Below, piece after piece: positions 3,898 through 6,918 of a stretch of 41,945 bases of DNA. Both the position numbers and the translations under genes were made by a program. The notes under the pieces were generated by a model that saw only the letters and a program-made list of their open reading frames with translations, searched no databases and was not told the origin of the DNA. The stretch is from Comamonadaceae bacterium (GTDB taxonomy: Bacteria > Pseudomonadota > Gammaproteobacteria > Burkholderiales > Burkholderiaceae_C). Within the stretch, counting starts at the first letter, position 1; each line of letters opens with the position of its first letter. Where the stretch lies: assembly GCA_947373245.1 (NCBI GenBank), contig CANBWY010000015.1:1-41945 (forward strand). Direction: 5' to 3'.

Positions 3898-6800
3898 TTA
3901 TTTCCCGAGTTTGACAAGCTGCTCTTGTACTTTGACCAAAGTCGCCGTGAATTCGGCCACGCGCTTCTTGGCTTCTTCAATCACCGCAGGCGGTGCTTTG
4001 GCCACGAAGGCTTCGTTGCTGAGCTTGGCACCCGCTTTTGTAATTTCGTTTTGCAGGCGTTCGACTTCTTTGCCCAGACGAATTTTCTCAGCGGCCACAT
4101 CCACTTCCATGAACAAACACACCCGCAACTCGCCAATCACCGCCACAGGTGCGGCTTGTGCCGCAGCAGACCACGCGGCTTCGTCGTCAAACACTTTGAC
4201 TTCGCTGAGTTTGGCCAGTGCTTGCAACACGGGAGCCACGCCTTGCATGAAGGCATGTTCTTCGACATTCCCAGCCAGTGCAAACAAAGGCATGCGGGTG
4301 GCGGGCGACACGCTCATCTCACCGCGCAAGTTACGACAGGCATCAACCAATGACTTGACGCGAGCGACATAGGCCTCGGCTTGCGCGTCGATGCGTTCAG
4401 GCTGGCTCACGGGGTAAGCCGCGATGCTGATGGACGCCGCCTTGTCGTCGGCCTGGATACGTCCAGCCACCACCGCCACGGTTTGCCACAGCTCTTCGGT
4501 GATGAAGGGGGTGATGGGGTGTGCCAAACGCAAGATGGTCTCCAGCGTGCGAATCAGCGTGCGGCGCGTCGCACGTTGCTGGGCGTCGTTGCCCGTGTTG
4601 ATTTGCACTTTGGCGATTTCCAAATACCAATCGCAAAACTCGTTCCACACAAAGTCGTAAATGGTGTTGGCCACGTTGTCTAAACGGTACTCAGCAAAGC
4701 CCTTGGCCACTTCAGCTTCCACGCGCTGTAGCTTAGAAACAATCCAGCGGTCCGCTTGGCTGAATTGCATATAACCGTGGGCCGAGCCGCCCACGGCGCA
4801 ATCTGCTTTGCTGTGCTCCATGAGGCCACAGTCTTGACCTTCGCAGTTCATCAACACAAAGCGCGAGGCGTTCCACACTTTGTTGCAAAAGTTGCGGTAG
4901 CCCTCGCAGCGTTTGCTGTCAAAGTTGATGCTGCGACCCAGCGAAGCGAGCGCTGCAAAGGTGAAGCGCAGCGCGTCTGCGCCGTAGGCGGGAATGCCTT
5001 CGGGGAATTCTTTTTCAGTTTGCTTGCGCACTTTGGGCGCAGTTTCGGGTTTGCGCAGGCCTTGGGTGCGTTTGTCGAGCAAGGGCGCCAGCGTGATGCC
5101 GTCAATCAAGTCCACGGGGTCAAGCACGTTGCCCTCCGACTTGCTCATCTTCTTGCCTTGTGCGTCCAGCACCAGACCGTGGATATACACATGTTTGAAC
5201 GGGACCTTGCCTGTGAAGTGCGTGGTCATCATGATCATGCGGGCGACCCAGAAGAAGATGATGTCGTAGCCGGTGACGAGCACCGATGATGGCAAATACA
5301 AGTCGTAGTCACTCATGCCGCTGGCGAGGGTGCCGGAACCGGCCTTGCTCCCACTCGCTTCGCTCGCAATGTCGCTGCGTCCGGCTCCGGCACCCTCGCC
5401 AGCTACTGGCCAACCCATGGTGCTGAATGGCACGAGTGCTGATGAATACCAGGTGTCCAGTACGTCTTCGTCACGCTTGAGTGTTTTGCCTGGTGCCTTG
5501 GCTTGCGCCTCTGCTTCATCGCGCGCCACATACACATGGCCGTCTTCGTCGTACCAAGCTGGAATTTGATGGCCCCACCACAGCTGGCGGCTGATGCACC
5601 AGTCGGTGATGTTGTTCATCCACTGGTTGTAGGTGTTGACCCAGTTCTCGGGCACAAAGTTCACTTGGCCCGTTTGCACCGCGTCGATGGCTTTTTGGGC
5701 AATGCTTTTGCCTGTGGCGTCGCCTTTGCCCACTTGGTTCATGGCGACAAACCATTGGTCGGTCAGCATGGGCTCGATCACTTGGCCGGTGCGGGCGCAG
5801 CGCGGCACCATGAGTTTGTGTTTTTTGACCTCCACCAAAGCGCCTGCGGCTTCGAGGTCGGCCACCACGGCTTTGCGGGCCACGAAGCGGTCGAGGCCAC
5901 GGTATTTTTCGGGGGCGTTGTCGTTGATGGTGGCGTCGAGGTTGAGCACACCGATGATGGGCAACTTGTGGCGCTGGCCCACGGCGTAGTCGTTGGTGTC
6001 ATGCGCGGGCGTGACTTTGACCACGCCCGTACCGAACTCCCGGTCTACGTAGTCGTCGGCAATCACGGGGATGGTGCGGCCGCACAGGGGCAGGTTGACC
6101 TGTTTACCGATCAGGGCGCTGTAGCGCTCGTCTTCAGGGTGCACCATCACGGCCACGTCGCCCAGCAAGGTTTCGGGGCGGGTGGTGGCCACGGTGAGTG
6201 AACCCGAACCATCGGCTAAGTCATAGCGGATGTGCCACATCGAGCCGTCTTCTTCGGCGCTCTCTACTTCCAAGTCTGACACGGCGCTTTGCAAAATCGG
6301 GTCCCAGTTGACCAAGCGTTTGCCACGGTAGATCAGGCCTTGTTCGTACAGCTGCACAAAGGTTTCGGTCACGGTTTTGGACAGCTTGGGGTCCATCGTG
6401 AAGTATTCGCGGCTCCAATCCACGCTGTCGCCCATGCGGCGCATCTGGCTGGTGATGGTGCTGCCGGATTCTTCTTTCCACTCCCAGACCTTGCTCACAA
6501 AATTTTTGCGTGCTTCAGCGGGGGTGGGGCCCATGTCGTGGCGGCTGATGCCTTTGGCTTGCAGCTGGCGTTCCACCACGATTTGCGTGGCGATGCCCGC
6601 GTGGTCCGTGCCAGGAATCCAGGCGGTGTTGAAGCCCGACATGCGGTGGTAGCGCGTCAGGCTGTCCATGATGGTTTGGTTGAACGCGTGTCCCATGTGC
6701 AGGGTGCCGGTCACATTGGGCGGCGGCAGTTGGATGGCGAACGCGGGGGCATCGGCCACTGGCGTGCCCGTGCCACGGAAACCGGCCACGCCATAGCCGC

Positions 6801-6918
6801 GTTGTTCCCATTCGGGGCCCCAATGGGCTTCAAGCGCGGCGGGCTCGAACGATTTGGACAGACGGTTCAATCCGGGCTGTTCGAGGGAAGTCGATGCGTT
6901 GGGGGGCGTGTTGCTCAT
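3898..6918 (-). CDS. valS: Valine--tRNA ligase with an in-frame palindromic-element insertion
   Basis: Class I aminoacyl-tRNA synthetase of 1006 residues that charges tRNA-Val. The HIGH-type motif is HMGH at residues 74-77 ([13 protein letters not shown]) and the KMSKS loop is at residues 590-594. The large editing domain lies between them, and the C-terminal coiled-coil arm that contacts tRNA is visible in the last 65 residues. ATG 6918 (MSNTPP) is preferred over an upstream in-frame ATG at 6957, whose extra residues look non-native. Residues 506-533, rich in Gly, Ala and Ser, come from an 82-bp inverted-repeat element and sit between PFSTMGWP and [13 protein letters not shown], where E. coli ValRS has only a short loop. 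The frame stays open, so the enzyme is probably functional. It is followed by galU. Confidence 0.96.
5321..5402. repeat. REP-like palindromic element inside valS
   Basis: Two 22-bp arms at 5321-5342 and 5381-5402 are inverted copies matching at 21 of 22 positions, separated by a 38-bp spacer that holds the purine-rich string CGAGCGAAGCGAG on the minus strand. In the valS mRNA the single mismatch becomes a G-U wobble, so the arms can form a continuous 22-bp stem. The element is in frame with valS and translates into 28 small, flexible residues. The architecture resembles REP/MITE-type dispersed palindromes of proteobacteria, but no second copy was noticed in this window, so the repeat family is an inference. 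Confidence 0.75.

Follow-up and report, generated by a model that had tools for sequence, protein, structure and literature searches.

A palindrome in frame within valS of a Comamonadaceae bacterium, very probably one of a genus-restricted family of repeats

Introduction

Insertions of Rickettsia palindromic elements (RPEs) are tolerated in surface loops of proteins, and MITEs have conserved terminal inverted repeats. The published accounts of such elements are cited below from excerpts. RPEs are palindromic repeats of ∼150 bp that lie in frame in unrelated housekeeping genes and encode a conserved peptide (PMC10969869). Rickettsia is the best-known home of in-frame palindromes, to which REPs, in scattered cases, were added in 2013: Di Nocera et al. 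2013 (PMC3733652) report REPs in the coding sequences of a number of bacteria, where uvrA and other repair genes, along with those for tRNA synthetases, stand out as hosts. The same paper describes REPs with stems of 5–13 bp and loops of 2–20 bp (inner loop regions of at most 27 bp in one set), and finds that those between genes mostly separate convergent or unidirectional neighbours. ERIC/RU and other MITEs occur intragenically as well (PMC2759123, PMC2229807). For the Correia element of Neisseria, in-place inversion has been described in connection with neighbouring gene expression (PMC10969869).

Here we describe a palindrome within the valS gene of a Comamonadaceae bacterium; the window below means the whole stretch of 41,945 nucleotides that was analysed. 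The element works like an RPE or an intragenic REP, yet we file it as a member of neither. Rickettsia and other bacteria have in-frame insertions of this sort too; what sets the present family apart is a different build, and the occurrence of both orientations at one spot of two genes.

Results

A palindrome in frame within valS

The locus has the following features.

3898..6918, minus strand: valS, the essential host gene, encoding valine-tRNA ligase of 1006 aa; its frame is unbroken across the element
5320..5403, no strand assigned: palindromic element of 84 bp, 28 codons, ValRS residues 506–533; open in all six frames
5320..5342, plus strand: left arm, 23 bp, of locus-specific sequence
5381..5403, plus strand: right arm, 23 bp, pairing with the left arm at 22 of 23 positions (96%)
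5347..5376, plus strand: conserved centre of ∼30 nt, GCTCCCACTCGCTTCGCTCGCAATGTCGCT in the window copy, common to other copies in the genome and genus

The gene product was identified by TIGR00422, with a score of 1047.9 bits where the cut-off is 612.1. A sequence-only reading of the window had reported 22-bp arms matching at 21 of 22 positions; the inverted repeat is present and reaches one base further at each end (arms of 23 bp, 22/23), with 38 nt separating the arms in an inverted-repeat search. The 28 extra residues of ValRS, 506–533, that the same reading had named are encoded exactly by the 84-bp element. A scan of the whole window (20-bp arms, at most 2 mismatches, 4–80 nt between arms) returned nine matches, all of them registers of the valS palindrome, so that the window has no other inverted repeat of this size; three dinucleotide-preserving shuffles of the window returned none under the same settings. 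Folding gave z-scores of −5.9 for one DNA strand, −6.6 for the other and −8.9 for the mRNA (−69.4 kcal/mol).

By alignment, the insertion point falls where residue 474 of Thermus ValRS (1GAX) meets residue 475, GWPEETE/DLKAFYPGDVLVTG, a place at which both 1GAX and the ValRS of relatives have a short loop. This position was taken from the 1GAX alignment, an AlphaFold model (5-sequence alignment, mean pLDDT 37) being left unused.

A conserved centre on private stems

Genomes were searched with a pattern of the centre, CGCTTCGCTCNNAATGTCGC. In its own genome the pattern has five sites at up to one mismatch and 14 at up to three, against 1 + 1 sites at up to three for a reversed control pattern. 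Six same-genus genomes have 4–8 centre sites each at up to two mismatches (control, 0), some of the two-mismatch sites being stemless. At E ≤ 0.1, a sequence model of the centre had matches in 24 out of 33 selected same-genus genomes: 3–11 matches in 15 genomes and one in nine, counts that take in weak matches.

The arms pair with themselves. Over 24 bp, arm complementarity averages 0.90 (minimum 0.71) within an element and 0.49 (sd 0.07, maximum 0.71) between elements (n = 31), the best register being allowed in both cases; some of the top between-element values come from elements at one and the same locus. These 31 elements were hand-chosen to represent loci, some loci by two or three species, and stemless copies were left out; adding six poor-stem copies lowers the within-element mean to 0.84. 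Arms pair better than the best of 50 shuffles in 31 of 35 distinct copies, the other four being L005 (own genome), L021, L042 and L066 (L, G and C numbers are our handles for loci, genomes and contigs). Stems are 17–33 bp long, with 31–43 nt between the paired arms (n = 31). Because arms differ between loci, searching the genome with the whole element, a check proposed along with the original observation, returns only the centre elsewhere: recurrence holds for the centre and not for the arms.

Flanking genes sort the copies into 16 clusters, one of them with two loci; with valS, which stands outside this grouping, there are therefore ∼18 loci in the genus. Many of them are common to several species by the same grouping, and so are old.

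A 25-base pattern at up to two mismatches matched 3 of 250 genomes of the taxonomic family, all three from the same genus, and none of the 247 genomes of its other genera. In a phylum sample, an exact 21-base pattern was found in 2 of 299 genomes, the own genome and one other. Across genome contigs an exact 24-base pattern returned 28 stretches, only from Limnohabitans and Comamonadaceae/Burkholderiales records. Matches of the centre that carry a name are Limnohabitans sp. JirII-31, B9-3 and Jir61, together with Comamonadaceae/Burkholderiales assemblies, and as judged by these named matches the host genus is Limnohabitans.

Copies were also seen at contig ends: L109 (G003:C79:1-280, a fold-back), G003:C3, G003:C14, G004:C273, G011:C20 and G011:C21. 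Draft assemblies thus seem to break at palindromes, which makes the copy numbers lower bounds.

The GCGAAGC within the centre may fold as the very stable DNA mini-hairpin, and the centre resembles a cosmopolitan repeat, AGATTCTTCGCTTCGCTCAGAATGACA. The 21-base core of the latter, a AGATTCTTCGCTTCGCTCAGAATGAC-like sequence similar to the centre, is widely dispersed and was met in 36 viral-contig stretches (L153–L188), six of them with two copies; no long stems around the AGATTCTTCGCTTCGCTCAGAATGAC-like copies in these stretches were seen by eye.

Genomic settings of the copies

Most loci lie between genes. In the nine intergenic settings examined, where sequence alone served to recognise the genes, the neighbours converge in seven, diverge in one (hemA) and are unidirectional in one. 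Oppositely oriented copies form pairs, 124–189 bp apart, at three loci. At the YqeY locus G058 (L071) has two opposite copies and G050 (L066) has one. The left arm of the G050 copy pairs with the right arm of one G058 member (1.00), and its right arm with the left arm of the other (0.83). Since the G050 arms match one arm of each G058 copy, two members have fused at their shared centre.

Copies lie in frame in four protein genes: valS, a uvrA gene (UvrA-type, TIGR00630), recG (NF008166) and a DUF3025 gene (PF11227). Relatives show a short loop in its place at each of the four. The UvrA-type gene is of double length, with an open frame of 1939–2004 codons (L261–L265). The initial proposal of an RPE-like insertion in frame is thereby borne out: the palindrome belongs to a repeat family, is absent at the same place in the valS of close relatives, and has kin in frame in three more genes.

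Filled, empty and damaged sites

The valS survey covered 50 loci, counted by eye: 42 same-genus loci (61 same-genus genomes were searched) and eight of other families. The centre is present in 18 of the 42 and in none of the eight. Eleven of the filled loci have the window orientation (one degraded, L025), six have the opposite orientation, and one is an ambiguous fold-back contig end. The suggested alignment of relatives' ValRS has the segment in some and lacks it at the same place in close ones. Relatives are thus partly without the segment and the centre is found elsewhere in the own genome, the reverse of the outcome (segment in all relatives, no further copies) that the sequence-only reading had held out against its proposal.

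Sister genomes G053, whose valS is filled, and G033, whose site is empty (GWPEKTPDY), pair with support 1.000 in both half-gene trees; outside this pair the left-half and right-half trees disagree. Identity dips beside the site: the 40 codons that immediately precede it have 85.5%, the five windows further left 91.7–96.9%. Disagreeing trees and the dip together indicate that recombination probably moved valS alleles; given the disagreement, gain, precise loss and recombinational replacement look alike at this site and are indistinguishable.

Other sites are damaged or variable. In the valS of G009 the 5′ arm is gone. The 30 uvrA loci divide into five with the centre, four with another repeat, 14 with a short loop and seven unparsed. 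In recG the element is intact in 1 of 23 genomes (G042; 2 of 25 were unread); by our reading the recG of G049 is a degraded remnant, and in relatives such as G058 both aligned flanks abut without an extra base. The DUF3025 gene has an intact element in 6 of 13 loci, one arm left in three and nothing in four (by eye; 5 of 18 unparsed), the remnants being the right arm alone in G009 and G041 and the left arm alone in G011. Judging from these partly deleted sites, insertions seem to decay by in-frame deletions. No clear target-site duplication was seen by eye between empty and filled recG and valS sites, whose flanks have diverged. An origin of the arms by fold-back duplication of flanking DNA is not supported, as the arms are unseen in empty recG sites.

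ValRS has other extra segments. The valS of G050 (L354, G050:C1:2117300-2117560) has a second, non-palindromic insertion near residue 331, with 90 bases between matched parts, and the ValRS of another family (L353, G086) has an extra segment, HIISAQPEPAEGSTDS, which looks like a translated copy of another dispersed repeat. The segments in other families (L351–L353) and the one near residue 331 in L354 were set aside, not being palindromes of the Limnohabitans centre family.

Opposite orientations, frames and peptides

In the valS pair G022/G013, L033 scores 121 against the reverse complement of L042 and 40 in direct comparison, and the outer flank is common to the two genomes in direct orientation. 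In the uvrA pair G050/G042, the corresponding scores of L204 against L229 are 129 and 30. Because arms and flanks are common, in-place inversion is a simpler account than re-insertion in the opposite sense. L109 (G003) was dropped as inversion evidence, being a fold-back contig end. The change of orientation swaps peptide RSDIGREADGRQ for LAPVRFAPDVAA in valS, and QRHSERSEEEQD for SCSSSLRSECRGD in uvrA.

Of the six frames of the canonical centre, one contains a stop. Five frames are in use: four open ones, by valS and DUF3025 together, inverted valS, uvrA and inverted uvrA, and the stopped one, by recG through a variant without the stop. Use of the fifth open frame was not seen among the valS, uvrA, recG and DUF3025 copies. 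There is no conserved encoded peptide: valS has SDILSEAKRS and APLRDAQNVA, uvrA has RHSERSEEE and SSSLRSECR, and recG has VATLRAKRGA.

Centre and flank identities were compared in small sets of loci found by protein searches, a choice independent of the centre, with flanks of 60 + 60 coding bases. They were 0.973/0.835 for valS type 1, 0.953/0.857 for inverted valS, 0.920/0.810 for uvrA and 0.876/0.818 for DUF3025; valS type 2, a set that takes in the degraded L025, is the exception, with a centre no more alike than the flanks (0.817/0.838). With the centre more alike than the flanks in four of five sets, selection on it may be at work, and gene conversion between copies would explain the likeness equally well.

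RAYT genes and the mobiliser

One RAYT-like gene was found in seven of eight genomes searched (79.4 bits against an NCBIfam cut-off of 80), and none in the own genome, which is 84% complete. At all seven RAYT loci (L189–L195) a different repeat, AATTGGGGTCAGA..CCCAATT, stands on either side of the gene, and these 3.3-kb loci contained no inverted repeats (score ≥12, ≤60 nt between). We rejected RAYT as the mobiliser, since the repeat beside it differs from the valS-element family. The AATTGGGGTCAGA..CCCAATT repeat also lies in the uvrA loop (L266, L275, L276, L278), where G010 has it as a palindrome and G022, G014 and G007 have one half of it; palindromes of two families therefore survive there.

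GTAG stands at an end of 2 of the 31 elements (chance mean 1.5), one of the two being the window's own element. CGTC lies within 5 nt of a stem end in nine of the 31; the chance mean is 3.5, and 4 of 300 draws gave as many. It is far from general, and the excess may reflect some kinship with CGTC REPs.

For the centre-family element we found no transposase, no target duplication and no within-species difference, and so its mobility is something that we infer. The palindrome was called mobile from the start; many loci are common to several species, and hence old, and the movement that we put forward is a past one.

Discussion

Comparison with known systems

RPEs are nearest in habit: an in-frame palindrome in protein genes, absent from relatives' orthologues (PMC10969869, in excerpt). 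They occur in other bacteria and have a conserved peptide; in the present family it is the DNA of the centre that is conserved, and five of its frames are in use. As RPEs are described in that excerpt, this sets the two apart. With intragenic REPs, as excerpted from PMC3733652, the family shares in-frame insertion, uvrA, repair and tRNA synthetase hosts, convergent settings, opposite pairs and complementary stem changes; the weak CGTC excess near the ends of Limnohabitans elements may be a further likeness to GTAG/CGTC REPs. The term "REP-like", applied to the palindrome at first, suits these habits better than the build (n = 31): stems of 17–33 bp against 5–13, and 31–43 nt between arms against 2–20. 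The Limnohabitans family is also without a general end tag or a RAYT link, its stems are locus-specific, and it has at most 11 matches per genome.

ERIC/RU and other MITEs are likewise small non-autonomous repeats adding peptide segments; Limnohabitans arms differ from MITE ends in not being conserved between loci (0.49 between elements, 0.90 within). With the Correia element, as excerpted, the family shares the in-place inversion of a small repeat, and differs in that the coding sequence of uvrA and valS is concerned. Among the matches listed in our literature searches, titles and the beginnings of abstracts do not describe the Limnohabitans centre family. DNA and peptide strings of the element had no match in open-access literature, and the excerpts drawn on contain no description, for REPs or MITEs, of a conserved centre on locus-specific stems.

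Origin and maintenance

We hold it very probable that the valS palindrome is a member of a genus-restricted, non-autonomous palindromic repeat, a long hairpin with a ∼30-nt centre, that was inserted in frame. Such a repeat would have spread in the past as a hairpin, probably of single-stranded DNA, handled by an enzyme. Insertions would have been kept where their length was a multiple of three, the frame was free of stops and the peptide fell in a length-tolerant loop. Hairpin-templated repair or selection could then have kept the stems paired at many loci despite sequence drift, and repair or recombination between the arms could have turned the element round, replacing the peptide. The added peptide is most likely a tolerated passenger, because the centre is read in five different frames across genes and orientations. 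That an enzyme recognises the centre on any long stem, which would account for a conserved centre on stems private to each locus, and can flip the element in place, flips in valS and uvrA amounting to reversible protein variation, seems to us unlikely; if true, flips of a coding palindrome would exchange one peptide for another in housekeeping enzymes.

The palindromes could instead be functional structured nucleic acids (a bidirectional terminator, an RNA motif or a protein site) in which the loop is recognised and the stem is purely structural, with the copies in genes as side products. Stems that vary while pairing is kept, a conserved centre, the convergent gene ends of seven of the nine intergenic settings and the keeping of the same loci between species all fit this. 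No Rfam family matched at its gathering score in 10 loci (30,200 bases), T-runs after the hairpin were seen by eye once (L074), and neither four in-frame gene loci nor both orientations in two genes would be expected of a terminator. We rate the idea as possible and somewhat unlikely; it is compatible in part with an in-frame mobile repeat, the two being not altogether exclusive. In our judgement the element is very unlikely to be a REP that the RAYT (Y1 transposase) of the genus mobilises, or to derive from CGTC REPs with a lengthened stem. The RAYT-like gene in seven of eight genomes and the CGTC excess (9/31 against 3.5 by chance) would suit such an origin, as would REPs known within uvrA and tRNA synthetase genes (PMC3733652, in excerpt). 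It is the different repeat, AATTGGGGTCAGA..CCCAATT, that flanks RAYT at 7/7 loci, however, and the inverted-repeat scan found none beside RAYT; GTAG ends are at chance level, though the window's element has one, and stem and loop sizes lie outside the REP range.

Two further accounts concern ValRS itself. A role of the added peptide in the enzyme, in regulation or binding, would agree with its being in frame, stop-free and kept in several species, and with a centre more alike than the flanks in most sets. We consider such a role highly improbable, since the peptide is wholly different between orientations, is missing in close relatives and is replaced by other peptides in other host genes. Hardly credible is an ordinary expandable Gly/Ala/Ser-rich loop that is palindromic by accident. 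ValRS loop length does vary between genera, but arms paired at 22/23 have no equal in shuffles and the same centre stands at other loci in other frames; recurrence of the centre and arm pairing within elements contradict an accident.

Significance

Filled, empty, partly deleted and oppositely oriented states coexist in a free-living freshwater genus with cultured strains, and the arrival, the loss, and the cost or benefit of the peptide are therefore directly testable. Its special value lies in the series of states in four genes and in the two opposite-orientation cases. Why unrelated repeat families should share uvrA, other repair genes and tRNA synthetases as hosts (for REPs, PMC3733652 in excerpt) calls for explanation.
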